From Dictyobacter aurantiacus (GTDB lineage Bacteria; Chloroflexota; Ktedonobacteria; Ktedonobacterales; Ktedonobacteraceae), in contig NZ_BIFQ01000001.1 in NCBI RefSeq assembly GCF_003967515.1, positions 5,952,001 to 6,016,000 of the forward strand: 64,000 bases of DNA, read 5' to 3'. Below are positions 6,664 to 61,235 of the stretch, in pieces. Position 1 is the first letter of the stretch, and each line of letters opens with the position of its first letter. The position numbers and the translations under genes were made by a program. Under the pieces are notes generated by a model. The model made no database searches. It was not told where the DNA came from and saw only the letters and a program-made list of their open reading frames with translations.

Positions 6664-6695
6664 AGTGTTGCCATTTTTTCCTGGAGGTAGTTTTC

Positions 6696-7580: not shown

Positions 7581-7608
7581 GTATCCCCGAAGACGAAAGG
7601 ATTATCAG

Positions 7609-8565
7609 ATGACTGAAGTACCGACAAATGAAGCGCCTCGCCTCTCTGATGATCAGATCATGGGCGTATTGCAGCAAATCGCCGATAGGTTCAGCCAGCC
7701 GCAGCGGTCGCCGGTCTTGCACACACCCGCGGAGCAGAACCTCGACTACGAGGATGTCACCTTTCCGTCCCTTGATGGAGTTCCATTGGAGGGATGGTTC
7801 ATCCCGGCAGCCGGGTCCAACAAGCTCATAATCGCTAATCACCCGATGGGGTTCAGCCGATCCGGGATACCCACGCAGTTCGAGCCGTGGCACTCAGGGT
7901 GGGTGTCCAGCGGGAACGGCTTCGAGGTCAACTTCATCCCGGACTACAAGATCCTCCATGACGCCGGGTACAATGTCCTGACCTATGACCTGCGCAACCA
8001 TGGTCTCAGTGGCGCGGCCAATGGCGGTATCGTGTCCAGCGGCATTTTTGAGGCGCGTGATGTTGTAGGCTCGTTGCAGTACGTGCGCAACCGTGACGAG
8101 ACGCGGGACATGACAATTGGCCTCTTCAGCCGCTGCCTGGGCTGCAACTCCACCTTCTTTGCGATGACGCGGTTCCCTGAGGTGTTCAACGAGGTGCGCT
8201 GCCTGGTCGCACCTCAGCCCGTGACCACACAGACCATCCTCGCGCATCGCCTGGCTCGGGCGGGAGTTCCCGCCAATCGCATCGAGGATCTGGAACAGCG
8301 CATCGTGTTAGGCACAGGCATCAGGTTCGCACAAACAGACCCGAAGGAGTGGGCGAAGCATGTCCGCATCCCTACGTTCCTCTATCAGGTCCACGACGAC
8401 GTGCTGACGCAGCCGAGCGATGTACAGACCATGTTCGACAACATTCCCATCGCCGAGAAGCAGCTACAGTGGATCTATGGCACCACGGCCCGCTTCGACG
8501 GCTACCTCGAGTTCCAGCGCCGCCCACAACCGATGTTAGAGTGGTTCGAGAAGTACATGGCCTGA
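7609..8565 (+). CDS. Alpha/beta hydrolase with Cys at the nucleophile position
   Basis: A 318-residue alpha/beta hydrolase. The central segment has the fold's order: LIIANHPMG (oxyanion region), YNVLTYDLRNHGLS, then the nucleophile elbow IGLFSRCLGCNS. At the elbow the usual G-x-S-x-G is S-R-C-L-G, which puts Cys176 where serine is expected. The C-terminal block, where a catalytic His would lie, reads GTTARFDGYLEFQ with no His. The ATG at 7609 has AAAGGA upstream. It follows the NmrA reductase by 28 bases, so the two probably act together. The reaction is unknown, and the altered triad makes ordinary esterase activity doubtful. Confidence 0.8.
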   Translation: MTEVPTNEAPRLSDDQIMGVLQQIADRFSQPQRSPVLHTPAEQNLDYEDVTFPSLDGVPLEGWFIPAAGSNKLIIANHPMGFSRSGIPTQFEPWHSGWVSSGNGFEVNFIPDYKILHDAGYNVLTYDLRNHGLSGAANGGIVSSGIFEARDVVGSLQYVRNRDETRDMTIGLFSRCLGCNSTFFAMTRFPEVFNEVRCLVAPQPVTTQTILAHRLARAGVPANRIEDLEQRIVLGTGIRFAQTDPKEWAKHVRIPTFLYQVHDDVLTQPSDVQTMFDNIPIAEKQLQWIYGTTARFDGYLEFQRRPQPMLEWFEKYMA

Positions 8566-43470: not shown

Positions 43471-44499
43471 TTAAAATCCGCCGTGGTTTTGGATGAAGGT
43501 CATGACCTCGTCGTGGGTGGGCATGAAGTTGGCGCAGCCGTGCTGGGTGACGAGGATGGCGCCGCAGGCGTTGGCGAGGCGCACCGTTTTATACCAGTCC
43601 CAGCCGTTGACGAAGCCGTAGAGCACGCCGGAGGCGAAGCCATCGCCGGCGCCGAGGATGTTTTTGACCTCGACGGGGAAGCCGGGCACCTCCAGCGGCT
43701 CGGCGATGACGCCATCGGAGATGGTGTGGATCAGCGAGCTGCCGGCGCCACGTTTCTGGATGACCAGGTCGGGCCCGAGTTTGAGCATGGCCTGGATGGC
43801 GGCCAGGCTGTCGCCGCTGACGCGCGCATCCGAGACCTGGGAGTGGGTCAGATTGACCTGGCTGGCCTCCGTCAGCATGACGGCGTTGATCTCGTCTTCG
43901 GTGCCGATGACTACGTCGACCAGGCGCAGAGCCGAGCGCAGGGTGATGCCGAATGCGCGCGCATCGTGCCACTGGTCGGGCCGAAAATCGATATCGAGCA
44001 TGACGGTGACACCGGCCTGCCGCGCCAGTTCCGCTGCCAGCAGGGTGGAGCTGCGGCTGGGCTCCTTGCACAGGCCGGTGCCGCTGATCAGCAGGGCACG
44101 AGCCTCGGTGATCGGTGTGGCCAGGACATCATCGATGGTAAGGGCGATATCGGCGCAATTCTCGCGGTAATAGGTCAGGGGGAAGCGATCCGGCGGCTCG
44201 ATGCCGAGTACGACCGCGCTTGAGCGCAGTCCCGGCTTGCGCGAGATAAACTGTGTATCGACCCCCTCGCGTTTAAGAAAATGCAGGATAAAGTCACCGA
44301 CCTGGTCGTCTCCAACCGCCGTCAGCAGCGCCACGTTCAAGCCCAGGCGGCGCGTGCCCACGCTGATATTGGTAGGGCAGCCGCCGACGTAGGCGGCAAA
44401 GCTACTGATATCGACGAAGGGAGCTCCGATGTCGTTGGAATACAGATCAATGGAAGAGCGGCCCATCGTAATCACATCGAATTTCTGCTGCGTTTCCAT
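43471..44499 (-). CDS. iolC: 5-dehydro-2-deoxygluconokinase
   Basis: A 342-residue PfkB-family kinase that phosphorylates 2-deoxy-5-keto-gluconate. PfkB signature 1 region is FAAYVGGCPTNISVGTRRLG (about 34-53), and signature 2 is NILGAGDGFASGVLYG (about 285) with the catalytic Asp. VMLDIDFRPDQW is typical of the IolC branch. It follows iolB by 15 bases. Confidence 0.94.
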   Translation of the reverse strand: METQQKFDVITMGRSSIDLYSNDIGAPFVDISSFAAYVGGCPTNISVGTRRLGLNVALLTAVGDDQVGDFILHFLKREGVDTQFISRKPGLRSSAVVLGIEPPDRFPLTYYRENCADIALTIDDVLATPITEARALLISGTGLCKEPSRSSTLLAAELARQAGVTVMLDIDFRPDQWHDARAFGITLRSALRLVDVVIGTEDEINAVMLTEASQVNLTHSQVSDARVSGDSLAAIQAMLKLGPDLVIQKRGAGSSLIHTISDGVIAEPLEVPGFPVEVKNILGAGDGFASGVLYGFVNGWDWYKTVRLANACGAILVTQHGCANFMPTHDEVMTFIQNHGGF

Positions 44500-44514
44500 G
44501 CTTGCACCTCTCCT

Positions 44515-45420
44515 CTAGGCCTTGTGCCCGATATCGTAGATCGGCACGCGCGCATCCTGTCCCTGGTAGCCTGTTTTGACCCAGACGTAACGTGGATCTT
44601 CACTGTTAGCCAGCGACTGGGCGCTGCCGGCCAGGGCATTGAGGTAATAGGTGGTATAGCCGGGAGGTGAGGCGACGGGATGGTAGCCCTCGGGCACCAT
44701 CACAGCATCGTTCTCGCGGGCCAGCAGGACTGCGTCGATGGGCTTGCCAGCGCGGTGCAGAGGAGACTCGGGATCGGTATAGATGCGCTGGAAAGCGTAG
44801 CCCTCGGGGCGGTCGATTTTATAGAAATAGATCTCCTCCAGATCGGCCTCAAGAATGCCGCCGGCGCTATCCGTCTTATGGATATCGTGTTTGTGTGGTG
44901 GATAGCTTGACCAGTTGCCGCCGGGCGTATAGACCTCGACGACGACCAGGCGATGGCAGGGGAAGCCGGGCGGGATGATGCTATTGATCTGGCGAGTCGC
45001 GTTATCGCCGCCCCGGATCTCGATCGAGACATCGGCAGGCGTCACCAGGCGCGGCTCATGATCCTGATCGGTGCGTACCCAGACCGCCACGTATTCGCAG
45101 GCGGTCTCGGCATGGACACTGAATGAGGTGCGGCGCGGCAGATAGAGCGCGTGCGGCAGACCGCTAAAGACGCTATCACGCTCGCCGATACGCGACCACT
45201 GCCCGCGATTCGACTCGACGCGGACGCGGCCGCTCAGGAGCACCAGCGCCATCTCATGCTCATCGGTGGTAGAGGTCCAGGAGCCATGTTCTGGCAGGCG
45301 GCGGGCTTGAAAATGGAGATAATCCCATCCGGCCAGTTCTGGCGTGACCTCGGTAATCACAGCGGTATCGCTGACACTATCAGGATGAACAATCAAATTG
45401 TCGGAAGTATACTGACGCAT
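44515..45420 (-). CDS. iolB: 5-deoxy-glucuronate isomerase
   Basis: A 301-residue double-cupin enzyme converting 5-deoxyglucuronate to 2-deoxy-5-keto-gluconate. The metal-binding cupin motif is in SSYPPHKHDIH (about 172-182) with a Glu in LEEIYFYKI and a His in EGYHPV. The order and length fit IolB. It lies 22 bases after the lacI gene, so the regulator leads the operon. Confidence 0.93.
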   Translation of the reverse strand: MRQYTSDNLIVHPDSVSDTAVITEVTPELAGWDYLHFQARRLPEHGSWTSTTDEHEMALVLLSGRVRVESNRGQWSRIGERDSVFSGLPHALYLPRRTSFSVHAETACEYVAVWVRTDQDHEPRLVTPADVSIEIRGGDNATRQINSIIPPGFPCHRLVVVEVYTPGGNWSSYPPHKHDIHKTDSAGGILEADLEEIYFYKIDRPEGYAFQRIYTDPESPLHRAGKPIDAVLLARENDAVMVPEGYHPVASPPGYTTYYLNALAGSAQSLANSEDPRYVWVKTGYQGQDARVPIYDIGHKA

Positions 45421-45442
45421 GGATTATTTCCTTTCCAGATAA

Positions 45443-46474
45443 CTATGTCGACAAGGGAGCGGTGCTGGCGCGCACTACGAGCGTGGGGCAGAGGGTATGG
45501 TTGGCTCCCGGACGTTCTTGCAGCAAGTCCAGCATGACCTGCGTTGCCAGGCGCCCCAGTTCTACGCGCGGCTGATGAATGGTGGTCAAAGGTGGTGTGA
45601 AGCAGCTGGCGATCGTAATATCATCAAAGCCGATGACGCTCAGATCCTGCGGCACGCGAACACCTTTGGCATGGCAGGAAGTCAGCATACCGATCGCCGT
45701 CATATCGTTATAGCAGAAGACCGCAGTAACGCCGGCGGCAAGGAAGCGCGAGAGCGCCTGCTGTCCCGCGCTGATGTCCTCCTCCTGAGAAGCCTCATTG
45801 CCCGGAGGTATCACCACCCAGGATGGCGACGGCTCCACGCCAGTGGCGCGCAGAGCGTCGAGGTACCCTTGATAGCGCTGAGAGCTTGATGCGGGACGGC
45901 TATGGCTCCCCAGGTAGCCGATCGCGCGATGTCCCAGTTGCTGCAGGTGTTCAACGGCCATCTGAGCGCCCCGGCGATCATCAACCGAGATCCAATGGAG
46001 CAGATTGGTTTGTCCCTCAACCTGACTGTTAATGAGCACGGTCGGGATGTGGGTATGGTGAAGACGACGGCTGTAATTGTCGGAGATGCGCGAAGAAGCG
46101 ACCAGGATGCCATCGACGCGGCGGCGATGGAAGGTCTCGATGATATCCAGCGTCTGCTCGGGATCGTTGTAGGACGCGCTGAGCAACACGCTAAAGTCAG
46201 AGGCGCGCGCCACCTCCTCCACTCCCTTGACGATATCGCCGAAGAATGGGTCCGCGATCGAGGTCACGACCAGGCCCACCGTGCTGGACTGCTTCGTTTG
46301 CAGGCTGCGCGCGATCGCGTTGGGAGTATAGCCCAGTTCTCCCGCCAGGCGCTGGATGCGCTCACGCGTCTTGGTGCTGATGAGTGGGCTCTCGCGCAGC
46401 GCGCGCGAAACGGTGGTATGAGAGACACCGGCGATGCGGGCGATATCAGAGATAGAGACCTCAGATTGGCGCAA
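45443..46474 (-). CDS. LacI-family regulator of the inositol operon
   Basis: A 343-residue regulator. The helix-turn-helix and hinge read SISDIARIAGVSHTTVSRALR and YTPNAIARSLQT. The effector domain has the LacI/RbsR-type order (VGLVVTSIADPFFG, HRAIGYLGSH, SVIGFDDITIA). It is the first gene of the iol operon, so it probably autoregulates the whole set and responds to inositol or an early intermediate. A strong promoter with palindromes lies upstream. Confidence 0.92.
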   Translation of the reverse strand: MRQSEVSISDIARIAGVSHTTVSRALRESPLISTKTRERIQRLAGELGYTPNAIARSLQTKQSSTVGLVVTSIADPFFGDIVKGVEEVARASDFSVLLSASYNDPEQTLDIIETFHRRRVDGILVASSRISDNYSRRLHHTHIPTVLINSQVEGQTNLLHWISVDDRRGAQMAVEHLQQLGHRAIGYLGSHSRPASSSQRYQGYLDALRATGVEPSPSWVVIPPGNEASQEEDISAGQQALSRFLAAGVTAVFCYNDMTAIGMLTSCHAKGVRVPQDLSVIGFDDITIASCFTPPLTTIHQPRVELGRLATQVMLDLLQERPGANHTLCPTLVVRASTAPLST

Positions 46475-48873: not shown

Positions 48874-49668
48874 ATGGATAAGAAGTTAGACGATATTGAT
48901 ACGAGCTCGTCGCAGCCGGCGTATCATGTTCCGGCGCTGGAGAAGGGGTTGGATATTCTGGAGTGCCTGGCGGCGCATACGGTGCCGCTGACTCAGGCGC
49001 AGCTGGCACGTTTGCTGGGGCGCGGCGCGAGTGAGCTCTTCCGTATGCTTACCTGTCTGGAACGGCGGCGCTATATCCAGCGCGATCCGGTGTCGGGCGC
49101 CTACAGTCTGACGTTGCGCCTGTTTGAGCTGGGTCATACTCACTCTCCTTACCAGGGATTGCTGCGGGCGGCGGCGCGTCCCATGCGCGAGCTGGTCGAT
49201 GAGATCAACGAGTCCTGTCATCTGAGCGTGGTGCATCAGGGCAGACTGGTGGTGCTGGCGCAGGAGGAGAATCATGCTCGCCTGCGACTCTCGGTTGAGG
49301 TGGGGGGGACCTTTCCGCTCCTGCATACCGCCTCTGGTCGTCTGCTGCTGGCACACATGAGCCCGGTCGCGGCCGAGGAAGCCTACCAGCTGGATGAGGA
49401 GTACGCGAGCTTATCCGCGCAGGAGCGCGAGGAGCTGGCGGCGCGTCTCGACGAGATCCGTGCTCGTGGCTACGAATATGTGGTGGGCGAGTCGAACGAT
49501 GGCGTGCAGGATCTGGTGCTGCTGGTTGGCTCGCAGACCTCGCACTTGCAGGCTGCGCTGGCGATCTGCTCGCTCTCGCGCAGACATGTTTCATTCCTCG
49601 ATACGATGCTGCCCCCATTGCGCCACTGTGCCGACGCCATCGCGAGTGCCGCAGGCATCGTGGTGTAA
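48874..49668 (+). CDS. IclR-family regulator
   Basis: A 264-residue regulator. The winged helix (about residues 18-80) has VPALEKGLDILECLAAH and LTQAQLARLLGRGASELFRML. The C-terminal ligand domain has CHLSVVHQGRLVVLAQ, HTASGRLLLAH, and GVQDLVLLVG. IclR proteins control degradative pathways and bind pathway metabolites. Shared operator blocks place the divergent 52.6-52.9 kb promoters, and thus the MaoC/CaiB/SBP-like/Gfo genes, under it, with autoregulation. It is convergent with the maoC-like gene. Confidence 0.92.
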   Translation: MDKKLDDIDTSSSQPAYHVPALEKGLDILECLAAHTVPLTQAQLARLLGRGASELFRMLTCLERRRYIQRDPVSGAYSLTLRLFELGHTHSPYQGLLRAAARPMRELVDEINESCHLSVVHQGRLVVLAQEENHARLRLSVEVGGTFPLLHTASGRLLLAHMSPVAAEEAYQLDEEYASLSAQEREELAARLDEIRARGYEYVVGESNDGVQDLVLLVGSQTSHLQAALAICSLSRRHVSFLDTMLPPLRHCADAIASAAGIVV

Positions 49669-49713: not shown

Positions 49714-50172
49714 TCAAATAGATGTCGTCGGCGTTCTACGCCTGGCAAGGAGGAGGTGTTCGCAGACCAGCACCAGTTCATCGTGCTGATTGAAGACCTC
49801 ACACTTTTCTACGACGACGCCGTGATCGGTGCGTTTGGCGTGCTCCCGCTTGTCGCTGATGGTGACGCGCACATGGATGGTGTCGTTGATGAAGACGGGC
49901 TTGATGAAGCGCAGCCGGTCATAGCCATAGGAGAAGGCAAGCTGATTGATGGCACCGGCGGTCATACCGATGGCGACGCTGAAGATCAGGGTGCCGTGGG
50001 CGATGCGCTGGCCGAAATCCTGTGTCTTGCACCATTCGCGATCCATGTGATGCGGATAGAAATCGCCGGTCTGTCCAGCGTGGATCACGATGTCGGTTTC
50101 GGTAATGGTGCGTCCCATAGTCTGACGCTGCTCACCGATCTGATAATCTTCGAAATAGCGGTCCTGGAACAT
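49714..50172 (-). CDS. MaoC-like hot-dog hydratase
   Basis: A 152-residue single hot-dog domain protein. The catalytic Asp/His region reads [22 protein letters not shown], and [14 protein letters not shown] is the family's second conserved block. Such enzymes hydrate 2-enoyl-CoA or related acyl-CoA thioesters. It is third in a leftward operon with an SBP-like gene and a CoA transferase, 18 bases after the latter, which suggests the CoA transferase supplies its substrate. Confidence 0.9.
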
Positions 50173-50190: not shown

Positions 50191-51363
50191 TTATAGATCA
50201 AACAGGTCAAATTCCTGGGCGATGAGCGCGTTGTGCTCGCCGATGGTTGGCGCTCCGACCGGCGAGGTTAGCAGGGTGCCATCGATGCGGATGGGGCAGC
50301 GCGTGGTGGTCAGAGCGGCACCGTTGGCGCGGCTCACACGCTGGACCATATCGAGGGCCTTGAAGCCGTCGTGCGCCAGCAGTTGATGCCAGTTGAGGAC
50401 TTCGGCGCACCACATGCCCGCCGGCTCCAGGATGCGCAACCAGTACGCGGTCGTCTCACCCAGGAGATGTTGGGCCAGCCGGGCTTTGATGGTATCGCGT
50501 TCACTAAACCAGGTTTTGGGGTTGGTGTAGAGCAGAAGTTCAGGGCAGTTCAAGAGCTGACCGAGGCGGGGGATGTCGTTCATGGCCAGCGCCAGGTAGC
50601 CATCGCTGGTCGCGTAGATACCATAGGGGGCACTCAGATAGGCGTTGGCATTGTTGACCTGGCTGCGCAGCGGCAGCTTTCCGCCATCATTGAGGTGCGT
50701 CGTGAGCAGCTCGAACTGGCAATCGAGGATGGATTCGAGCAGGCTGACCTCAACGAGGCCGCCCTGACCACTGATGCCACGACGGACCAGGCAGGCCAGG
50801 ATGCCCTGGGCCAGGTAGGTACCGGTCAGCATATCCGCGATGGAGAGTCCGAAGGGGACCGGACCCTGCGTCGCGTCGCCGCTCAGCCAGGTCACTCCCG
50901 ATAGGGCCTGCGCGAGCAGGTCCTGTCCCGGCAGATCGCGCCAGGGGCCCTCTTTCCCATAGCCACTCACCGAGGCGTAGACGAGGCGTGGATACTCCGC
51001 GCGCAGCTGATCATAGCCGAGCCCCAGCCGCTCGATGACGCCCGGGCGGAAATTCTGGATCAACACATCGGCGCGTGATATCAGCTTCTTCACCTGCCGC
51101 AGCTCAGCCGGATTCTTGAGATCGACGGCGAAGCCCTGCTTGTTACGGTTGATCGAATGAAATAACGTACTGTCACCGTCCAGATCAAGGTTGGAGATGT
51201 AGAGCTGGCGGCAGAGGTCACCGCCCTGGGGGCGCTCGATCTTGATGACGCGCGCGCCCATATCGGCCAGGCGCAGCGAACAAAATGGCCCGGCCAGGAA
51301 TTGACTGAAATCGAGGACGAGGAGTCCGCTCAACGGCTTTGTACTGTCGTAATGCTGGCTCAT
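50191..51363 (-). CDS. CaiB/BaiF-type family III CoA transferase
   Basis: A 390-residue enzyme moving CoA between carboxylic acids. The N-terminal LSGLLVLDFSQFLAGPFCS and GARVIKIERPQGGD, the NRNKQGFAVDLKNP segment, and LSIADMLTGTYLAQGIL with the catalytic Asp (about residue 176) are all present. It stands between the SBP-like gene (76 bases upstream) and the hydratase. The acid is unknown; the neighbouring dehydrogenase suggests a sugar- or cyclitol-derived acid, by inference. Confidence 0.92.
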   Translation of the reverse strand: MSQHYDSTKPLSGLLVLDFSQFLAGPFCSLRLADMGARVIKIERPQGGDLCRQLYISNLDLDGDSTLFHSINRNKQGFAVDLKNPAELRQVKKLISRADVLIQNFRPGVIERLGLGYDQLRAEYPRLVYASVSGYGKEGPWRDLPGQDLLAQALSGVTWLSGDATQGPVPFGLSIADMLTGTYLAQGILACLVRRGISGQGGLVEVSLLESILDCQFELLTTHLNDGGKLPLRSQVNNANAYLSAPYGIYATSDGYLALAMNDIPRLGQLLNCPELLLYTNPKTWFSERDTIKARLAQHLLGETTAYWLRILEPAGMWCAEVLNWHQLLAHDGFKALDMVQRVSRANGAALTTTRCPIRIDGTLLTSPVGAPTIGEHNALIAQEFDLFDL

Positions 51364-51439: not shown

Positions 51440-52585
51440 CTATGCGAGCGAATGGGCGTAGAGGTTGTCGATCTCGCGCAGCACCGCGCGAGGATCTCCT
51501 CCCTCGCTCAGGTAGCGATGTACCAGCGGACCCGCGTGATCCTGGAAAGGGATCGCGCCGGAGTGGCGGGGGCGCAGATAGGCCTGATCCAACGTGGGGA
51601 GGGTACGGGCGAAGAAGTGGTCGCAGGCCTGGTTGACGGTATGATCCAGCCATGCCTGACGATGGCCGGGCTGACCACCGCTGACGAAATACAGCCCACG
51701 CTGATTGACCGGGTCGGCGACAAAGCGCGCGTAGGCGAGCGCAGCCTCCCGCTGGTCGCTGCGCGCCGAGAGGGCCAGCCCGGTTCCACCCAGCGTCGAG
51801 CGCAGTTGCATAGAGTTGAGGCTGACCAGTTCGCCGAAGCGTAGCGGCGACCGCGCGTACTCGGGTCGCGCATAGTTGACGTAGCCATAGGCGGCGGGAC
51901 AGTAGGCGATCTGATCGCTGGAGATCATGGCCTCGTAGGTGGCGATGGGATTGCGCCGCAGACACGCCGGATCGCACAGACCGACCAGTTCGCGCAGGGA
52001 GTTGAGCGCGGCCACACCCACCTCCGTACTGACCACGTTGCGTCCATTGGCGAACGGCTCCTCCCCGAGTCCACAGCAGAGCATGTAGAAATGCATCAGG
52101 CTATCGATGGGAATGGCGGGCAGCGCTACCAGGCCGCGACGCGCCAGCGCCAGCACCTCATCCCAGGTGCGCGGAAGCTCGATCCGCCAGCGGGCCAGCA
52201 GGTCGGCGCGCCAGGAACTGACCGGCGTGGCCGCGTCGACGGCCAGCGCCCACTGATGATCTCCAAATGTGTAGCTCTCGTGCGAACGACCAACACTATG
52301 GCTGGCCTGATCGGCCAGAAACTCCGCTGGAAGATGCTCATCGAGCGGCAGCAGGACGGGATGGCTGGCCGCGTAACCGACAAAGGGATGATCAATGATC
52401 AGCAGGTCGAATTTATCCGCCAGCTGGTCAACGGGGAAATCGGCAAACTCCTGCAGCGAGCGCTTATGCCAGTGGACCTCGATGCCAGGGTTCAACTCGC
52501 TAAAGCGCTGGGCGCTGGCCACCAGCGGTAGATAGCCGCGCGTGTGATTCCAGGTGATGCCGTTGAGAGTGATGACAGCGGACAT
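51440..52585 (-). CDS. Solute-binding-protein homologue without signal peptide (1)
   Basis: A 381-residue protein with the family 1 extracellular SBP pattern: RFSELNPGIEVHWHKRSLQEF, FDLLIIDHPFVGYA, LPRTWDEVLALAR, and the late AALAYARFVADPVNQRGLYF. The N-terminus MSAVITLNGITWNHTRG starts directly in the first beta-strand, with no signal peptide, lipobox or Tat motif. GAGGAAATAT before the ATG at 52585 fixes the start, so the protein is expected to stay in the cytoplasm. It leads an operon with CaiB and MaoC genes. It may be a metabolite sensor, a carrier or an enzyme built on the SBP fold. Confidence 0.82.
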   Translation of the reverse strand: MSAVITLNGITWNHTRGYLPLVASAQRFSELNPGIEVHWHKRSLQEFADFPVDQLADKFDLLIIDHPFVGYAASHPVLLPLDEHLPAEFLADQASHSVGRSHESYTFGDHQWALAVDAATPVSSWRADLLARWRIELPRTWDEVLALARRGLVALPAIPIDSLMHFYMLCCGLGEEPFANGRNVVSTEVGVAALNSLRELVGLCDPACLRRNPIATYEAMISSDQIAYCPAAYGYVNYARPEYARSPLRFGELVSLNSMQLRSTLGGTGLALSARSDQREAALAYARFVADPVNQRGLYFVSGGQPGHRQAWLDHTVNQACDHFFARTLPTLDQAYLRPRHSGAIPFQDHAGPLVHRYLSEGGDPRAVLREIDNLYAHSLA

Positions 52586-52623
52586 ATATTTCCTCTGCAA
52601 ATAGGCTTTGTCGAAATATGTTT

Positions 52624-52663
52624 TCGTATATGAATATTGTAATCACAGGTGAAAAATTGTCAA
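52624..52663 (-). promoter_or_regulatory. Leftward promoter/operator of the SBP-like/CaiB/MaoC operon
   Basis: On the minus strand TTGACA (52663-52658), a 16-bp spacer holding TTTCACCTGTGAT, and TACAAT (52641-52636), then ATTCATATACGA. This block is nearly identical to the rightward promoter at 52787-52827, which makes the divergent region a 43-bp inverted repeat. Confidence 0.78.
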
Positions 52664-52786
52664 GCTGGTTTAAGTTGCGAGCATTGGAGATATTGTCCTT
52701 GCACCGCAGGCAGGGGGTGGTAGGAAGACAATGTCCGGTATGGACGGTGAAGGGAATCGGTACGAGGAAAAGGTATTTTGACTCCC

Positions 52787-52827
52787 TTGACAAACTTTCA
52801 CCTGTGATTACAATATTCATATACGAA
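52787..52827 (+). promoter_or_regulatory. Rightward promoter/operator of the Gfo/Idh operon
   Basis: TTGACA (52787-52792), a 16-bp spacer, and TACAAT (52809-52814). The presumed IclR operator TTTCACC...TTCATATACGAA (52796-52827) covers the spacer and -10, so bound regulator would block RNA polymerase, or would act from a nearby position as activator. Confidence 0.78.
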
Positions 52828-52854
52828 CATATGAAAGCCGAGGGTGGGCATGTG

Positions 52855-52915
52855 CTTTCCGGGGACGTGGCCGCTTTGCGGCAAGCGCCCGCAAGGGGCG
52901 CACGTACGGGTGGAC
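52855..52915. repeat. REP-like hairpin (family A variant)
   Basis: GTGGCCGCTTTGCGGCAAGC, then GCGCCCGCAAGGGGCGCACGTACGG. It lies in the mRNA leader of the Gfo/Idh gene, between promoter and ribosome site. Confidence 0.6.
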
Positions 52916-52947
52916 GTGTGCGCCCGGGGAAAAGGGGATATGCCGTT

Positions 52948-54060
52948 ATGAGCAATGATGCAATACAGGGGCCCCCACGTGGTGATTGGCAGGTTTCGTC
53001 GGAGATTCCGCTGCCGAGGCGCCGCGATTATCCCATCGCGATTGTTGGCGCGGGCAGCATCGTCAATGACGCGCATCTGCCGGCGTATCGGAAGGCTGGC
53101 TTCAACGTCATTGGTATCTATGATCAGCAGACCGATAAGGCGCGGGCGACCGCCGCGCGCTACGGCATTGATACCGTCTATGCCAGTCTGGACGATGTGC
53201 TTGCCAGTCCAGCGGCTATCGTCGATGTCGCGGTCCCGGCGCGCGAGAATTATGCTATCGCCACTCGCGTCGCGCAGGCGGGCAAGGCTCTTTTATTGCA
53301 GAAGCCGATGGCGGAGGACCTTGCCACAGCCGGGTCGATCGTCGCAGCCGTTGAAGAGGCGGGCATCGTAGCAGCGGTGAACCAGCAGGCGCGCTGGATG
53401 CCAGCGGCGCTGGCGATGCGAGACCTCATCAGGCGCGGCCTGCTGGGAGAAATCTACCAGGTCACGTTTCTGATCAACGTGCTGACCCCCTGGGATACCT
53501 GGCCCTGGATCGTCGCGGGCGAGCACGTCGAAGTCATGTATCACTCGATCCATTATCTCGATACTATTCGCGCCCTGCTGGGACGTGAGCCGCGCCTGGT
53601 CTTCGCCGATGGCAGCACTGTGCCCGGCTTCGCGACCGGAGGCGAGACACGCACGACGATCCAACTCATCTTCGATGGACAATTGCGCGCCACGGTCGTC
53701 GATACCCATCACAATAGCGGCGGACTGGTTGACCAGTTCGCAACCTTTCGCGTTGAGGGGACCGAGGGGAGCGCGGTAGCGGAGCTGGGTCTGCTCAAGA
53801 ACTATCCCACCGGCGTCCCCGATAGCTTCCGTTACATGAGCCATAATCTGCAATCTGGTACCTGGATCAGCCCTGATCTTGCCGGCAGCTGGTTTCCTGA
53901 TGCCTTTATCGGCACGATGGCCAGCGTCATGCGTGGTCTGGAGGGCGCTCCTGGCGCTCCCGAGACATCGCTGCGTGACAATCTGGGCACGCTGCGCATC
54001 GTCATGGCCGCCTATCGTTCTATGACCAGCCACTGCGCCGTTGATCCACAATCACTATAA
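52948..54060 (+). CDS. Gfo/Idh/MocA-family dehydrogenase
   Basis: A 370-residue NAD(P)-dependent oxidoreductase. The Rossmann motif is IAIVGAGSIVNDAHLPAY (about 31-48); the family Lys is in LLLQKPMAEDL (about 120), where the usual EKP is QKP. The C-terminal sheet domain has VMYHSIHYLDTIRALLG with the expected His/Asp area. I chose ATG 52948, preceded by AAAAGGGGATA; the longer frame runs through the promoter and a REP. It is the first gene of the rightward operon. The substrate is probably a polyol, sugar or cyclitol. Confidence 0.88.
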   Translation: MSNDAIQGPPRGDWQVSSEIPLPRRRDYPIAIVGAGSIVNDAHLPAYRKAGFNVIGIYDQQTDKARATAARYGIDTVYASLDDVLASPAAIVDVAVPARENYAIATRVAQAGKALLLQKPMAEDLATAGSIVAAVEEAGIVAAVNQQARWMPAALAMRDLIRRGLLGEIYQVTFLINVLTPWDTWPWIVAGEHVEVMYHSIHYLDTIRALLGREPRLVFADGSTVPGFATGGETRTTIQLIFDGQLRATVVDTHHNSGGLVDQFATFRVEGTEGSAVAELGLLKNYPTGVPDSFRYMSHNLQSGTWISPDLAGSWFPDAFIGTMASVMRGLEGAPGAPETSLRDNLGTLRIVMAAYRSMTSHCAVDPQSL

Positions 54061-54189
54061 TGCGGTTAACTATTCAAGCGACCACTCCCATCCAAATGCA
54101 TGACCTATCCATCAGGAATGGTGTCAGAGAAAAGTCTGATGAACGTCAATTGATTTTATGTCAGAGACGGAAATGGAGGCACAAAGCGT

Positions 54190-55443
54190 ATGGTCACTGG
54201 AGACAAAACGGTACTACGCCTGGTGGGGCGCAGCTTTGTCGGCTTCGAGCAGGCACTGGCCGAGCAGGCGGCGGCCTTTGAGCAGGCCTATCCTGGCGTC
54301 AAGGTGGAGCTGACCTTTCGCGAACCACAGGCACTCTACGAGAGTACGATTGCCCGAGCCGAACTGGCGAGTGGCGACATTGACGTAACGCTGACCCTGA
54401 CAGACTGGCTGCCCGAAGCAATGCAGCGTGGCCTGCTGGTGGCGCTCGACCCTTTGCTGGAGCAGGCACCACCCGAAGGATGGCCGGATGGCTGGTCGCC
54501 CAGCCTGCGGAGCTTGCAGCGTGACGCAGGCGGCCGGACCTATGCCCTGCCGTATCATGATGGTCCCATGATGTTTATCTATCGGCGCGACCTGTTTGAG
54601 GATCCGCGTGAGCAGTCCGACTTCCAGGCACGCTACGGACAGGCGCTACGACCTCCTGAGACCTGGTCCGAGTATTTAAAGATCGCGCAATTTTTTACAC
54701 GGCCCGAGCAGGATCTGTATGGCGTGGTGGCCGCTGGCCTGAACGACGCGCACAACAACGTCTACGACTTCATGATTCACACCTGGAGCCGTGGTGGTCG
54801 CCTGCTTGATGACCAGGGGCTACCGATCTTTCACGACCCGATCGCCATTGAGGCCCTACAATTTCACGTCGACCTGTTTAACCGCTACAAGGTTGTGCCA
54901 CCGGAGGCGAAAGAGCTCGATTCGGTAGCTTCTGGGGCCTGTTACGCAAGTGGGCGCGCCGCCATGATGGTTAACTGGTGCGGCTTCGCCACGATGGCCG
55001 AGGTGCCAGAGCAGTCGCGTGTAGTGGGCAAGAACGGTCTGGGCCTGATACCGCGTGGTGATAGCGCCCATGGTGCGCATACATCGATCAACGTCTACTG
55101 GGTACTGGCGGTCGCGGCGGGTAGCGCGCAGAAAGAGCTGGCCTATGCGTTTCTGCGCTCAACGGCATCGCCTGCCCTTGATAAGGTCACGGCGCTTAAT
55201 GGCTGCATCGCCACGCGATACACGACGTGGCGCGATCCCGAGATTCTGCGCCAGTTTCCTGTCTACTCCACCATTGAAGCCGTGCATAAGAGTGTGGACA
55301 GTCCACCCCCCATTCCCCAGTGGCCGGCGATCACCGAGATTTTGAACGTCGCGATAGACGATGCTTTGCACCAGCGCAAGAGCGTCGAAGAGGCGTTGAC
55401 CTGGGCCAGCGCTCAGGCGCGGCAACTCATGGAGGCAAGATGA
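54190..55443 (+). CDS. Solute-binding-protein homologue without signal peptide (2)
   Basis: A 417-residue family 1 SBP-like protein. LRLVGRSFVGFEQALAEQAAAF, AYPGVKVELTFRE, LPYHDGPMMFIYRRDLFEDP, and AAMMVNWCGFATM follow the SBP order. The N-terminus MVTGDKTVLRLVGRSF again enters the fold directly, with no export signal, and GGAGG 9 bases before ATG 54190 rules out a nearby earlier start. It sits 129 bases after the dehydrogenase gene and shares its promoter. It is the second cytoplasmic-looking SBP homologue in one regulon, not a close copy of the first. Confidence 0.82.
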   Translation: MVTGDKTVLRLVGRSFVGFEQALAEQAAAFEQAYPGVKVELTFREPQALYESTIARAELASGDIDVTLTLTDWLPEAMQRGLLVALDPLLEQAPPEGWPDGWSPSLRSLQRDAGGRTYALPYHDGPMMFIYRRDLFEDPREQSDFQARYGQALRPPETWSEYLKIAQFFTRPEQDLYGVVAAGLNDAHNNVYDFMIHTWSRGGRLLDDQGLPIFHDPIAIEALQFHVDLFNRYKVVPPEAKELDSVASGACYASGRAAMMVNWCGFATMAEVPEQSRVVGKNGLGLIPRGDSAHGAHTSINVYWVLAVAAGSAQKELAYAFLRSTASPALDKVTALNGCIATRYTTWRDPEILRQFPVYSTIEAVHKSVDSPPPIPQWPAITEILNVAIDDALHQRKSVEEALTWASAQARQLMEAR

Positions 55444-55592
55444 CCACTGGCAGATAAAGTCCGGGTAAGGATGTATAGAACTTATTTTTTCTGAGCAGGA
55501 GGTAATAAATAATATACTTTTCTTTCATGTACGAAAACCCATATTTGTGCTACTATGCATGCTTTATCCACCACAAGCACATGTATTGCCTC

Positions 55593-55773: not shown

Positions 55774-56434
55774 AGAATGTGTCTGACTTTTGTTACCATG
55801 GGGGCACGTGAGCGCCTCCGCACGCGCGTCCGCTATGCGGCCGCACCGGTTTTGGTTGTTGGTGCACCAGGGGCGCATCCGCGCCCCTGGTGCACCAACA
55901 ACCAGAGGACTCTTAAGCACCTTATGCAGGCCGCTGGCCGTAATCATGAGGGTCCAGAAGTGTCTGACTGCCGTTACCATAGGGGCACGTGAGCGCCCCC
56001 GCACGCGCGTCCGCTGCGCAGCCGAGCTGGTTTGGTGAGCTGGTGCATGGTATGAGCGGCTGAGCTGGTTTGGTGTGTTGGTGCATGGTATGAGCGGCTG
56101 AGCTGGTTTGGTGTGTTGGTGCATAGGGTGCGCAGCCGCGCACCCTATGCACCAACACACAACGGACTCGTTGAGCACCGTAGTGCTCTGTCAAAGTTCA
56201 TTTGATGGGGGAGCGGGGATGCAAGCGAGCATGCCGGGGGCATGATCAAGCGGCTAGCCCCAAGCTGGGGCTAGCCCAGCACCTACGGGGGTTCGGGGGC
56301 TGTGCCCCCGGCAACTCCTTCCCCTCTCGCCCGCGTAGCGGGCGAACAATCCATCAAACGAAGTTTGACAAAGCAGTAGGTGCGAAAGATCAGGAGTGCC
56401 GCAGGCGAAAGATCATGGGTGTAAGACACGTTCT
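55774..56434. mobile_element. Composite family C element with two palindromes
   Basis: Left terminal repeat AGAATGTGTCTGACTT at 55774 and right terminal repeat GTAAGACACGTTCT ending at 56434. Inside are one palindrome with 24-bp arms (55853-55876/55881-55904), a second left-end copy at 55956-55969, a run of GAGCTGGTTTGGTG repeats, and a second palindrome with 23-bp arms (56111-56133/56138-56160). It looks like one element inserted in or fused to another, with a third element nested at 56189-56370. Confidence 0.68.
56189..56370. mobile_element. Nested 182-bp TIR element
   Basis: 20-bp terminal inverted repeats matching at 18 positions, TGTCAAAGTTCATTTGATGG at the left and the complement at 56351-56370. 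It interrupts the GAGCACCG..GGTGCGAAA stretch that is continuous in family C copy 1. It carries a family A REP-like hairpin (GCTAGCCCCAAGCTGGGGCTAGC) and no reading frame. Confidence 0.7.
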
Positions 56435-56567: not shown

Positions 56568-58049
56568 ATGGAATATTCTAATCGGGACGGCATCACACCT
56601 GAACTCGAACGTGAACTTTTGAAGCGCGGTTACAGTAGGAGAGAAATTCTCAAGTTAGCAGGGATAGTCGGGGTGAGTGGACTGCTTGCCGCCTGTGGAA
56701 GTGTAAAGCCGCAGACCTCGCAAGGCAAGGCTGCCGCCGGTACACCGACCCCGGTCACGAAATCAATCTACTCAATTAGCGACGCCAATGGCCTGCAATG
56801 GCCCAAAACGGTCCTGCCCGAACCGACCTCGAAGGTTCAGCTTAGTATCTCTCACTCCTGGGATGCTACGTTCTGGACGCGCCAGGTGCAGTTTGACACG
56901 CTATTCATGAAACGCCATCCCAACATCAGCATCAGCGCCGAGAATACACCGTTTAACAATTATCTGCAGAAATACATCGCGCAGGCGGCTGGCGGGACCT
57001 TGCCTGATGTGATGTATTGTCAGTTTGCCTGGGCGCAGCAATTTATTTCACAGGGAGCAATCGCGCCGCTCGACGACTATATCAGCAAGCAGACCGACTT
57101 CAACCTCAGCGACTTCACCAAGCCATCGATGGGTTTCTATCAGCGCGGAGGAAAAACATACGGCATAGCTTACGACTGCGGCCCTGGTCTGCTCTACTAC
57201 AATAAGGATCTATTTGATAAAGCTGGCGTGAAGTATCCCACCAACGATTGGACGCTTGATGATCTCAAGCAGAACGCTATCAAGCTGGCCAGCGGCCAGG
57301 GGCGTGACAGGATTTTTGGCATCAGTGCGACTCCCAATCCCTCCGATGGTGGTATCGGGCCCAACTATCTCTTCCCCTTTGGGGGCCAGTACACCAACGA
57401 GCCTCAGGAGACGCAGTGCTATCTCGACCAGCCGGCGGCCGTCCAGGCCATGCAATGGTGGCTGGAGATACGGCTCAAGCACAACGCCGTCCCCTCGCCA
57501 GCCGAGGCGCAGGGCTTCCAGATTCAGCAGCTCGATCCCTTCACGCTGGGAAGGTCGGCCATGATGCTGGCAGGCTCCTGGTCGACACCCGCCCTCAGCC
57601 AGAATGCCCGTTTCAAGTGGGACTTCGCCCTCTGGCCCAAGGGGCCCAAAGGGCGCTCGACATTTGCTGAAGGGAGCGCGTACATGATTCCCAAAAATGG
57701 TCAGAACAAAGATGCCGCCTGGATCTATCTGAACGAGTACCTCTCCTCAGCGGGTCAGCAATTTATGTGGGGGATGACCGGGCGTGGCAGTCCAGCTCGT
57801 TCGTCGGCCTGGGATTCCTATTTCAAATCAAAATACGCTCCGCCAAGCGCGAAGCTGGTACTGGAGTCGCTGGAGAAGTATGGCTCGAACGCGGTGCTCC
57901 ACCAGCCCACGACGCCGAAGGTATCCAACACAGTTACACCAATCTGGGACCGCGTTGAAGCGGGTCAGCTGGCTGTAGCGGATGCCCTGAAGCAGGTTGC
58001 TCAGCAGGTAGGCCCGATACTGGCGCAGAATGCCAACTCCGGCAGCTGA
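56568..58049 (+). CDS. Sugar-binding Tat/lipoprotein of second ABC importer
   Basis: A 493-residue extracellular SBP. The N-terminal region has SRREILKLAG followed by LLAAC, that is, a twin-arginine-like signal plus lipobox, so it is probably exported folded and lipid-anchored. The fold begins at KVQLSISHSWDATFW, and typical SBP blocks are GGTLPDVMYCQFAW, YYNKDLFDKAGVKYP, and GRSAMMLAGSW. AAGGGAGGAT precedes the ATG. It is followed by two permease genes. The ligand is unknown. Confidence 0.92.
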   Translation: MEYSNRDGITPELERELLKRGYSRREILKLAGIVGVSGLLAACGSVKPQTSQGKAAAGTPTPVTKSIYSISDANGLQWPKTVLPEPTSKVQLSISHSWDATFWTRQVQFDTLFMKRHPNISISAENTPFNNYLQKYIAQAAGGTLPDVMYCQFAWAQQFISQGAIAPLDDYISKQTDFNLSDFTKPSMGFYQRGGKTYGIAYDCGPGLLYYNKDLFDKAGVKYPTNDWTLDDLKQNAIKLASGQGRDRIFGISATPNPSDGGIGPNYLFPFGGQYTNEPQETQCYLDQPAAVQAMQWWLEIRLKHNAVPSPAEAQGFQIQQLDPFTLGRSAMMLAGSWSTPALSQNARFKWDFALWPKGPKGRSTFAEGSAYMIPKNGQNKDAAWIYLNEYLSSAGQQFMWGMTGRGSPARSSAWDSYFKSKYAPPSAKLVLESLEKYGSNAVLHQPTTPKVSNTVTPIWDRVEAGQLAVADALKQVAQQVGPILAQNANSGS

Positions 58050-58145: not shown

Positions 58146-59093
58146 ATGCAACTGACGAGCGAAAAAGTGAGTCCGCAGCAGAAAGCCGTAAAAAAGGCTA
58201 CTTCCCGGCGGGCGCGGCGCGAGGAGCGCGAGTTTTACCTGTTTATCTTACCCTGGCTGATAGGATTCATCTTCTTTGGTGGGGGACCGATCATCGCTTC
58301 GGCCTTCCTCAGCTTCTCCAACTGGTCGCTGCTCTCCAGCCCGCAATGGATCGGGCTGCAAAACTATCAGCGTCTCTTTCAGGATCCCCTTTTCTATGTT
58401 GCCCTCAAGAACACGCTGTATTATGGCATCGGCAGCGTTCTGCTGAGTGTGGTGGTCTCGTTTCTGCTGGCGCTACTGCTTAACCAGAAGGTACACGGCA
58501 TCGCCTTCTTTCGCACTATCTTCTACCTGCCATCGGTTGTCTCGGGCATCGCGACCGCGCTGCTCTGGATCAACATCTTCCATCCAGATTTTGGCATGGT
58601 CAACTTCCTGCTCGGGCTGGTTGGTATCCAGGGACCAGGCTGGCTGGCATCGGAGCAGTGGGTGATTCCCGCGCTCATCATCATGAGCGCCTGGAGTGCC
58701 GGAAGCACGATGATCATCTACCTGGCGGGCCTGCAGGGCATACCCGCGCACCTGTACGAGGCGGCGTCGATCGATGGAGCGGGCAACTGGTCCAAGTTCT
58801 GGCACGTCACCGTCCCAATGATCTCACCGGTCATCTTCTTCAACCTGATTACAGGCTTCATCGCCTCGCTGCAAGCCTTTGTGCTGATCCTGGTCATGAC
58901 CAATGGGGGTCCCGCCAATGGCTCGCTGGTCTATGGGCTCTATATCTATCGCGAGGCCTTCCAGTATTTCGACATGGGTTATGCATCCGCGCTGGCATGG
59001 GTACTCTTCATCCTGATCATGCTAATCACGATGATCCAGCTTGGTCTGGCCCGGCGCTGGGTCCACTATGAAGGCGCAATACAAAGGAGATAG
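58146..59093 (+). CDS. Sugar ABC importer permease (MalF-type), second system
   Basis: A 315-residue membrane permease with six main hydrophobic segments after a basic cytoplasmic N-terminus. The EAA loop is LYEAASIDGAGNWSKFWHV (about residue 205). AAAGGAG precedes the ATG. Three bases separate it from the next permease. No ATPase gene is nearby, as for the first importer. Confidence 0.93.
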   Translation: MQLTSEKVSPQQKAVKKATSRRARREEREFYLFILPWLIGFIFFGGGPIIASAFLSFSNWSLLSSPQWIGLQNYQRLFQDPLFYVALKNTLYYGIGSVLLSVVVSFLLALLLNQKVHGIAFFRTIFYLPSVVSGIATALLWINIFHPDFGMVNFLLGLVGIQGPGWLASEQWVIPALIIMSAWSAGSTMIIYLAGLQGIPAHLYEAASIDGAGNWSKFWHVTVPMISPVIFFNLITGFIASLQAFVLILVMTNGGPANGSLVYGLYIYREAFQYFDMGYASALAWVLFILIMLITMIQLGLARRWVHYEGAIQRR

Positions 59094-59096
59094 GTT

Positions 59097-59990
59097 ATGA
59101 AAGTAAGCGCAACCACCGATTCGCCTGTAGTAGAGACGTTGAAGCCAGCGCAACAGAGCAGGAGGACTGCTATAAAGCCCGGAAGAATCATGATCTATGT
59201 CTTGCTCGTGCTGGGGGCGATCGTTTTCATCTTGCCATTTATGTGGATGGTCACGACATCGCTCAAGCCATCGCAGCAGGTCTTTACCTTCCCGCCACAG
59301 TTTTTCCCCAGCACCTTTCAATGGCAGAACTACATAGATGGCTGGACAACGCTTCCCTTCACCCACTTTTTGATCAATACAATCATTGTCACGGTCGCCA
59401 ACGTATTCGGAAACCTGATCTCATGCGCGCTCCCGGCGTACGGCTTCGCGCGCCTGCGCGCGCGCGGCAGCAATGTTATGTTTGTTCTCATGCTGGCAAC
59501 CATGATGATCCCGGCCGAGGTAACGCTGGTGCCCACGTTTATCCTCTTCAGTAAAGTAGGCCTGGTCAACACGCTCTGGCCGCTGATCCTGCCGGCCTGG
59601 TTTGGCTATCCCTTCTCGATTTTTCTATTGCGACAATTCTTTATGAGCATTCCCAATGAGCTGGATGATGCCGCGCGCATTGAGGGCGCCTCGAATCTAC
59701 GCATCCTGACCAGTATCATCCTGCCGCTCTCCAAGCCAGCCCTGGCAACCGTGGCGATTTTCGCCTTTGTCGGCAACTGGAACAACCTGCTATCGGCATT
59801 GATCTACCTACGCTCCACCAATCAGTTCACGCTGGCGATTGGCCTCAACCTGTTCTATGGTCAGTCCGTCACCGCGTATAATCAGCTGATGGCGGTATCT
59901 ATTCTGACCATTCTACCGATCATCGTAACCTTCTTCTTCTCGCAGAAGTACTTTATTCGTGGGGTTGTCCTGAGTATGGGAGAACGCTAA
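59097..59990 (+). CDS. Sugar ABC importer permease (MalG-type), second system
   Basis: A 297-residue partner permease with six membrane segments. The EAA loop is ELDDAARIEGASNLRILTS (about residue 190), and FILPFMWMVTTSLKP near the start is typical of MalG proteins. The spacing of three bases to the upstream gene implies translational coupling. It ends the operon; a GC-rich hairpin (60021-60058) follows. Confidence 0.93.
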   Translation: MKVSATTDSPVVETLKPAQQSRRTAIKPGRIMIYVLLVLGAIVFILPFMWMVTTSLKPSQQVFTFPPQFFPSTFQWQNYIDGWTTLPFTHFLINTIIVTVANVFGNLISCALPAYGFARLRARGSNVMFVLMLATMMIPAEVTLVPTFILFSKVGLVNTLWPLILPAWFGYPFSIFLLRQFFMSIPNELDDAARIEGASNLRILTSIILPLSKPALATVAIFAFVGNWNNLLSALIYLRSTNQFTLAIGLNLFYGQSVTAYNQLMAVSILTILPIIVTFFFSQKYFIRGVVLSMGER

Positions 59991-60101: not shown

Positions 60102-61043
60102 CTATGAAGATAGAGTCGCGAGGCGATCATCGGGCAAGAGGGCATGGACGCCAAGGACGCCATTGGCGATCTGCGTGATGCGCAGATCAACGACCAGACT
60201 GGCAAGCGCGAGGGCCTGGTTTCGCGGCAGATGGTAGTGATCGGTCATGATGTCGATCATAGCATCTAACGCGATCAACGAGGCCTCGTGGAGGTCCTCG
60301 TGAAATCCCAGCGTGATCCAGGCGTTGTCGACCCTGGCTTGAGGTGTCTTCAAAGAGAGATCGTCGCGCAGATGAAAGGTGAGATCGACGCGCTCCATGG
60401 GGCATTCGATGGCGACCCCGCTCACCTCGCCATCGCCCTGGACGCCGTGCCCATCCCCAACCGAAAAGAGCGCGCCGGGCACGGAAATAGGGAGATAGAG
60501 GGTTGTGCCAGCGACCAGTTCTTTGCAATCGATATTGCCGCCACAATAGCGCGGTGGGGAGGTGGGATGGATGCCCGGCTCATCGGGAGGCATCCCCATC
60601 ACGCCCATGAAGGGTCGTAGGGTGATGGCATGGCCATACTGATCACGCGCGATCATCTGATCGATGTTCAGCGACCAGCGCAGCCGCAACTTCTCTTCGA
60701 GCAGACCGAGCTTCTTATTGACGGCGCTCTCCCAGCCACCGGCGACGGTCCAGCCCCAGGGGCCGGGGCGTATCTCATTGATATGGACTTCAAGCACCAT
60801 GCCGGGCTGCGCGCCACGGATAGCGACGGGTCCGCAGAGGGCGTGACCACGGTCACGTGTTTCATCGCGCGGTTGAAATTTGTGGTCTGGCTCGCCATCC
60901 TCACCTAAGGAAAGGTTCCAGCCCGCATCCAGGGTGCGGAATTGTACGGTGTCCCCTGACTCGATGGTGAGCACCGGGGGATATTCCCGCGAGAAGGTGC
61001 CGTGAAGCGTTTGTGAGTCGGGTCCGATGGTATAGGTTGTCAT
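60102..61043 (-). CDS. Acetamidase/formamidase family protein
   Basis: A 313-residue amidase of the FmdA/AmdA family, which hydrolyses formamide, acetamide or other small amides to ammonia and acid. Blocks seen are GPVAIRGAQPGMVLEVHI (about 75), GWTVAGGW, PFMGVMGMPPDEPG, PPRYCGGNIDCKEL (metal/active site region with Cys and Asp), and FSVGDGHGVQGDGEVSG. The ATG at 61043 gives the usual N-terminus; an earlier in-frame start at 61094 has no ribosome site. Confidence 0.9.
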   Translation of the reverse strand: MTTYTIGPDSQTLHGTFSREYPPVLTIESGDTVQFRTLDAGWNLSLGEDGEPDHKFQPRDETRDRGHALCGPVAIRGAQPGMVLEVHINEIRPGPWGWTVAGGWESAVNKKLGLLEEKLRLRWSLNIDQMIARDQYGHAITLRPFMGVMGMPPDEPGIHPTSPPRYCGGNIDCKELVAGTTLYLPISVPGALFSVGDGHGVQGDGEVSGVAIECPMERVDLTFHLRDDLSLKTPQARVDNAWITLGFHEDLHEASLIALDAMIDIMTDHYHLPRNQALALASLVVDLRITQIANGVLGVHALLPDDRLATLSS

Positions 61044-61235
61044 GTTTGTTGCCCTGCATTCTTTCAGTGAAACTGTATCTAGATATTCTACCATGTAAGT
61101 ATATAGATGGAGGCCGTTTGAATTTCAAGCAACCCATTGTGTACGCCGTTCAGAGCGGGTTGTTGATATGGGAAGTTGTGGATATAATTTGTTGTCGTTT
61201 TTGGCAGGATAGTGGGTAGCAGTATTCACTCAGCC

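Follow-up and report, generated by a model that had tools for sequence, protein, structure and literature searches.

Folds of the solute-binding protein (SBP) type occur in intracellular proteins that carry out catalysis, such as MqnA/MqnD and the THI5/NMT1 type. Cyclohexadienyl dehydratase (CDT) is an enzyme that evolved from an amino-acid SBP (PMC7683729), a precedent for an SBP fold turned enzyme by way of its ligand cleft. Here we describe two proteins, SBP1 and SBP2, encoded in a 64,000-nucleotide (nt) stretch of Dictyobacter aurantiacus DNA (contig NZ_BIFQ01000001.1, positions 5,952,001 to 6,016,000; hereafter the window) from a genome of 8.9 Mb (G000). Judged from sequence and gene context, both have very probably turned from transport to metabolism, perhaps to catalysis, because they have lost their export signals and because, in hundreds of unrelated microbes, their genes are linked to those of a coenzyme A (CoA) transferase, a hydratase and a dehydrogenase.

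The described proteins most like SBP1 and SBP2 are the CUT1 MalE-type SBPs (PF01547; SmoF, 7ofy; TMBP, 1eu8), with which they share the fold, the family profile and template modelling (TM) scores of 0.85-0.88. Unlike CUT1 SBPs, they have neither an export signal nor a dependence on permeases, their invariant cleft residues differ, and their partners are CoA enzymes and a dehydrogenase. CDT differs in its origin from an amino-acid SBP, whereas SBP1 and SBP2 match sugar-SBP profiles only (Pfam SBP_bac_1/8/11), are intracellular and sit beside CoA enzymes. MqnA/MqnD and the THI5/NMT1 type belong to another fold subclass and other sequence families, and scans of Pfam and NCBIfam placed neither SBP1 nor SBP2 in families of the CDT, MqnA/D or THI5 kind. 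What the two proteins have in common with SBP-fold enzymes is an SBP fold without a transport role. The metabolic system that the locus most resembles is the oxidative L-fucose/L-rhamnose pathway (L-fucose dehydrogenase, fuconolactonase, fuconate dehydratase, 2-keto-3-deoxyfuconate dehydrogenase and a FAH-type hydrolase), which shares gene neighbourhoods with the SBP1/SBP2 module in Flavobacterium, Roseibium and Pararhizobium. To our knowledge that pathway includes neither a CoA step nor MaoC nor any intracellular SBP-fold protein; since it lacks a CoA step, the module would be an extra branch.

Starts, folds and ancestry of SBP1 and SBP2

SBP1 (381 aa) starts at the ATG at 52585 with AGAGG just upstream, and SBP2 (417 aa) starts at the ATG at 54190, preceded by GGAGG and by no usable upstream signal. 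A listed TTG start for SBP1 (52600) overlaps the SBP1 ribosome site, so the ATG is the likely start. The full stop-to-stop frame of SBP1 gains merely LQYSYTKTYFDKAYLQRKY, an extension that cannot encode a signal because it is short and lies partly upstream of the predicted transcription start. As stop-to-stop frames yield no signal, a start-call artefact was ruled out. The first-pass annotation, made from the letters alone, had described two SBP homologues without export signals whose starts are fixed by ribosome sites, and this description holds.

The absence of a signal extends to the relatives. The window proteins each start within strand 1 of the fold, and 82 SBP1 and about 60 SBP2 sequences from genome loci likewise lack an export signal; their conserved N-terminus begins at the same place and is often preceded by an in-frame stop a few codons upstream. 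In about 90 loci, no close homologue turned up with an export signal, which the annotation had named as refuting evidence. Peak N-terminal hydrophobicity is 1.33 for SBP1 and 1.13 for SBP2 of the window; the family means are 0.7-0.8, as opposed to about 2.2 for sampled ABC (ATP-binding cassette)-type SBPs of the same genome. As a control, 23 other PF01547 proteins of this genome were inspected, and nearly all carry a lipobox or a twin-Arg/lipoprotein N-terminus. The one exception to the signal-less stop-to-stop frames is a few Flavobacterium loci (L048, L056), in which a non-conserved AT-rich upstream stretch reads as hydrophobic residues.

Both proteins score above the cutoff for Pfam SBP_bac_1 (1e-9 for SBP1, 6e-31 for SBP2), and an NCBIfam scan gave no match for either. 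AlphaFold models built from the family alignments reached a mean predicted local distance difference test (pLDDT) score of 95.5 for SBP1 and 95.0 for SBP2. With Foldseek, the nearest structures to SBP1 were SmoF and MalE3 (TM about 0.85, 15-18% identity) and the nearest to SBP2 was TMBP (TM 0.86-0.88, 26% identity). In these models, both are predicted to be sugar-type SBP folds with the two lobes intact.

SBP1 and SBP2 are only 19% identical to each other in a profile alignment. In a tree of 66 rows each forms one clade with 100% SH-aLRT support, and the two are not sisters: SBP2 is nested among ABC SBPs and SBP1 stands apart on a long stem, with the exact placement of both unsure because many of the ABC rows are long branches. 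The separate clades imply that export was lost at least twice, and the tree indicates that SBP1 and SBP2 are independently derived from exported sugar-binding proteins. The claim that the two proteins differ from one another was thus borne out.

Gene partners, distribution and pathway setting

Across 92 SBP1 loci, caiB is present in 89, a gene for MaoC or an enoyl-CoA hydratase in 87, gfo in 70 and SBP2 in 64; an IclR homologue is nearby in 39 and an ABC permease in 9. The linkage to caiB and maoC noted in the first-pass annotation is conserved across these loci, and permeases are not a consistent partner. Its wording that CoA genes are partners "instead of permeases" was too strong, since an importer lies downstream in the window and in the same operon in relatives. 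Where caiB follows SBP1 on the same strand (n = 81), the overlap is exactly 4 nt in 43 cases, and 69 pairs are no more than 30 nt apart. Among the 83 loci of at least 17 kb, two architectures recur: SBP1-CaiB with SBP2-gfo-MaoC (55/83), and SBP1-CaiB with an enoyl-CoA hydratase, often an aldehyde dehydrogenase, and neither SBP2 nor gfo (13/83). SBP2 and gfo are associated (p = 2e-10, with kinship ignored) and adjacent in 53 of 57 loci, and in some Chloroflexota SBP2 adjoins gfo without SBP1 nearby. From the caiB linkage and the SBP2-gfo adjacency it follows that CaiB is the partner of SBP1 and the dehydrogenase that of SBP2.

The CaiB of the window has both the CoA_transf_3 domain and the class III catalytic Asp. 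All 154 CaiB copies with a residue at that column keep the Asp equivalent to Asp169 of FRC, the reference sequence. The window MaoC is 66% identical to the copy in Rufibacter. In three Hymenobacter loci (L023, L035, L036) the module's two caiB genes form a single fused gene for a protein of about 820-850 aa; this fusion suggests that the two CaiB proteins form a heterodimer.

A scan of genome contigs found at least 572 relatives of SBP1, and the genome loci analysed here are the best 80 of them. They come from Acidobacteria, Thermomicrobiales, Bacteroidota, Paenibacillus, Alicyclobacillus, Gammaproteobacteria, a relative of Burkholderiales and Verrucomicrobia. On plasmids, tblastn found SBP1 in 145 records, including those of rhizobia, Azospirillum, Streptomyces, Rufibacter and Persicobacter; the plasmids with SBP2 were from Rufibacter, Persicobacter, Croceibacterium and the haloarchaeon Halostagnicola. 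These plasmid and contig relatives rule out an oddity confined to one genome. Within its own class, this genome alone of 47 has either gene, and among 400 genomes of the phylum SBP1 occurs in 6 and SBP2 in 9. The patchy occurrence suggests that the module spread by horizontal transfer. Mean pairwise identity is 56.8% for SBP1 and 61.6% for caiB, and SBP1 diverges more slowly than IclR. One Ammoniphilus locus (L032) has a further, divergent SBP1 (6665-7813; 41% identity) accompanied by a caiB, an AMP-binding enzyme and an enoyl-CoA hydratase of its own, possibly a sub-family with another substrate. In the openly accessible literature, subscription papers being outside the search, we came upon no account of a cytoplasmic SBP linked to CaiB/MaoC.

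The neighbours of the module point to L-fucose/L-rhamnose catabolism as its setting. They include the L-fucose:H+ symporter FucP and L-fucose dehydrogenase, both above curated cutoffs, as well as fuconolactonase- and rhamnonate-hydrolase-like proteins, GH78/GH106 rhamnosidases, alpha-L-fucosidases, L-rhamnose mutarotase and homologues of RhaT, RhaI and RhaD. Plasmids of Roseibium and Pararhizobium carry a complete L-fucose operon in which the module is embedded. Flavobacterium loci such as L048 have a lactonase, a fucose dehydrogenase, an alcohol dehydrogenase and a FAH hydrolase with no enolase-type dehydratase nearby, and we considered from them that the module might replace a missing sugar-acid dehydratase. 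As a general rule this is unsupported, because Roseibium and Pararhizobium have an annotated L-fuconate dehydratase together with the module and because MR_MLE proteins are encoded elsewhere in the Bacteroidota genomes. Near the module of Paenibacillus radicis (L027:3001-5667) lie a RuBisCO-like protein and, by eye, an apparent four-carbon acid sugar kinase. These two kinds of protein are known together from D-apionate catabolism, and they may point to a branched or rare sugar as the substrate.

Candidate roles of SBP1 and SBP2

The homology of SBP1 and SBP2 to MalE-type SBPs is clear, and in the window an ABC importer lies 1.1 kb downstream. Both observations would suit ordinary transport SBPs whose signals were recently lost or missed, which use another export route, or which serve the nearby importer. 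Against this stands the lack of a signal in every lineage examined, and the importer has two permeases and a signal-bearing SBP of its own in the same operon. One Chloroflexota operon (L147) reads SBP1-caiB-maoC-gfo-[signal-bearing SBP]-permease-permease-SBP2, where only the importer's own SBP among the three carries a signal. Moreover, hosts without such permeases exist, which already contradicts a transport role: none of 12 SBP1-bearing Bacteroidota genomes has a homologue of the cluster's ABC permease, a search with the first of the two permeases (58146-59093) as query that recovered 41 homologues in the D. aurantiacus genome and more than 100 in Paenibacillus as positive controls. In several of these Bacteroidota (e.g. 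G047, G048, G049, G051, G052, G055 and G056), SBP1 and SBP2 are the only PF01547 proteins. The permease-less hosts and the L147 operon rule out a misannotated ABC component. On this genomic evidence we regard a non-transport, cytoplasmic role for SBP1 and SBP2 as almost certain, and a transport role as highly improbable. The core claim of the first-pass annotation, that these SBP homologues left transport for a CoA-linked catabolic cluster, is thereby strongly supported.

That annotation offered enzymes, carriers and sensors as alternatives, and although sequence does not decide among the three, an enzyme or enzyme subunit is favoured by the invariant residues of the cleft, by divergence as slow as an enzyme's and by the translational coupling between SBP1 and caiB. 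Non-catalytic cytoplasmic carriers or buffers would bind a reactive or scarce intermediate, such as a sugar lactone, a sugar acid or an acyl-CoA, and pass it to CaiB or the dehydrogenase. The intact two-lobe fold and the binding inherited from a sugar-SBP ancestry fit such a role, and the tight coupling of each gene to that of one enzyme suits substrate hand-over. Small water-soluble acids seldom have soluble carriers of this type, however, and the slow divergence and many invariant His, Asp, Arg and Trp residues exceed what simple binding needs, which leaves the carrier role a minority candidate that we consider unlikely. Still less probable are intracellular sensors that measure a pathway intermediate and modulate IclR or enzyme activity. 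SBP-type folds do serve as ligand sensors elsewhere and the cluster appears to be co-regulated through shared palindromes (see below), but both proteins lack an output domain, an IclR regulator is already encoded in the cluster, and the gene coupling is to caiB and gfo, with IclR in fewer than half of the loci.

Invariant columns number 56 in the SBP1 family alignment and 48 in that of SBP2. They are enriched within 2 residues of the equivalents of the maltose contacts of MalE (SBP2, p = 2e-4; SBP1, p = 0.008, mapped to MalE via an anchored profile), and the enrichment weakens at wider margins. The invariant cleft set of SBP1 includes R16 next to H14 in the loop after strand 1, D65-H66-P67, D117-A118-A119 and Q348; that of SBP2 includes D72-W73, H123-D124-G125-P126 and the N262-A267 loop. 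As a sign of catalytic turnover this enrichment is suggestive only.

We favour, with somewhat better than even confidence, the reading that SBP1 and SBP2 are cytoplasmic SBP-fold enzymes or substrate-clamping subunits in a CoA-linked 6-deoxyhexose branch. It is likewise rather probable that at least SBP1 is catalytic or is an obligate subunit of the CoA-transferase. In the proposed scheme, a sugar or sugar acid would be taken up by an importer that varies with the lineage (ABC, RhaT or FucP), after which the Gfo/Idh/MocA enzyme would oxidise it. CoA would then be transferred onto the resulting acid by the class III CoA-transferase, and MaoC, or the crotonase in the other variant, would add or remove water on the thioester. 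Together with CaiB, SBP1 would enclose this acid or the CoA ester made from it, and SBP2 would enclose the compound on which the dehydrogenase acts; each of the two would catalyse a step (e.g. of the elimination, isomerisation or retro-aldol type) or present the substrate to its partner. Several points weigh against this reading. We identified in SBP1 and SBP2 no catalytic motif of any known SBP-fold enzyme, and the invariant residues of the cleft could also belong to a highly specific binding protein. Roseibium and Pararhizobium have a full conventional L-fucose route beside the module, so that the module would there come as an additional branch. Finally, linkage in the relatives more distant than the 80 most similar genome loci was sampled only through plasmid and phylum loci. 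Taken whole, the proposal comprises two convergent cytoplasmic enzymes of the maltose-binding protein fold, SBP1 obligate with CaiB and SBP2 with Gfo/Idh/MocA, in a new CoA-dependent branch of L-fucose/L-rhamnose type that spread horizontally across phyla, with SBP2 also in a haloarchaeon; we consider this combination about evenly balanced between true and false.

The window locus and its control region

Features of the window, with positions numbered from its first letter
Feature	Position	Strand	Basis or remark
Operator-like palindrome TTCATATATGAA	48797..48808		before the IclR gene, 66 nt upstream
IclR-family regulator	48874..49668	+	Pfam IclR_C + HTH_IclR
MaoC-type hydratase/dehydratase	49714..50172	-	Pfam MaoC_dehydratas 5e-24
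CaiB class III CoA-transferase	50191..51363	-	Pfam CoA_transf_3 2.6e-99
SBP1, signal-less MalE-type solute-binding fold	51440..52585	-	caiB partner
Left mirrored promoter TTGACA-16-TACAAT	52618..52664	-	towards SBP1-caiB-maoC; palindrome TTCGTATATGAA at 52623-52634
Right mirrored promoter, same element	52786..52832	+	towards gfo-SBP2; palindrome at 52816-52827
Gfo/Idh/MocA-family oxidoreductase	52948..54060	+	SBP2 partner; Pfam GFO_IDH_MocA 4.7e-19
SBP2, second signal-less MalE-type solute-binding fold	54190..55443	+	predicted independent origin
ABC-type SBP with signal (RREILK...LLAAC)	56568..58049	+	internal control
Two ABC sugar permeases	58146-59093, 59097-59990	+	

The two mirrored promoters face outward from inverted-repeat arms of 47 nt that are 91% complementary. 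The first-pass annotation had both SBP genes flank this divergent control region, which is true of SBP1; gfo intervenes before SBP2. The TTCATATATGAA site is a third copy, with 3 mismatches, of a 21-nt element of which 0 copies are expected by chance, and the palindromes of the window are the probable IclR operator of this genome. A looser copy lies at 55524-55535. No promoter or terminator signals were found between SBP1 and caiB or between gfo and SBP2. The mirror promoters, the shared palindromes, the third copy at the IclR gene and the uninterrupted gene gaps together support a single putative IclR regulon that contains both SBPs. The TTCRTATAYGAA palindrome of the window is not common to the other loci, and we rejected a conserved operator across relatives.

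The signal-bearing SBP beside the permeases is probably the receptor of the importer for the same cluster, and next to this importer (60102-61094) lies, by eye, an acetamidase/formamidase-like protein. Between SBP2 and the importer, an intergenic segment (55779-56169) holds long inverted repeats that pair perfectly (24/24 and 23/23 bp) around 4-nt loops, together with a direct repeat of 88 nt (82%) and three 38-nt units in tandem; it looks like a mobile or regulatory repeat family. Just upstream of the cluster, translations of 43471-46474 read as a PfkB-type sugar kinase (IolC-like), an IolB-like isomerase and a LacI regulator, in what looks like an inositol catabolic cluster.

With at least 572 relatives of SBP1 known, this system is conserved and yet unrecognised, and hundreds of genomes label these proteins "extracellular solute-binding protein", a misleading name. 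If SBP1 and SBP2 are enzymes or enzyme subunits, a large transport fold has given rise to intracellular metabolic proteins on at least two occasions within a single pathway, which would amount to a natural replicate experiment in turning a binding cleft into an active site. It would also mean CoA-linked breakdown of 6-deoxy sugars, a plentiful component of plant and algal polysaccharides.

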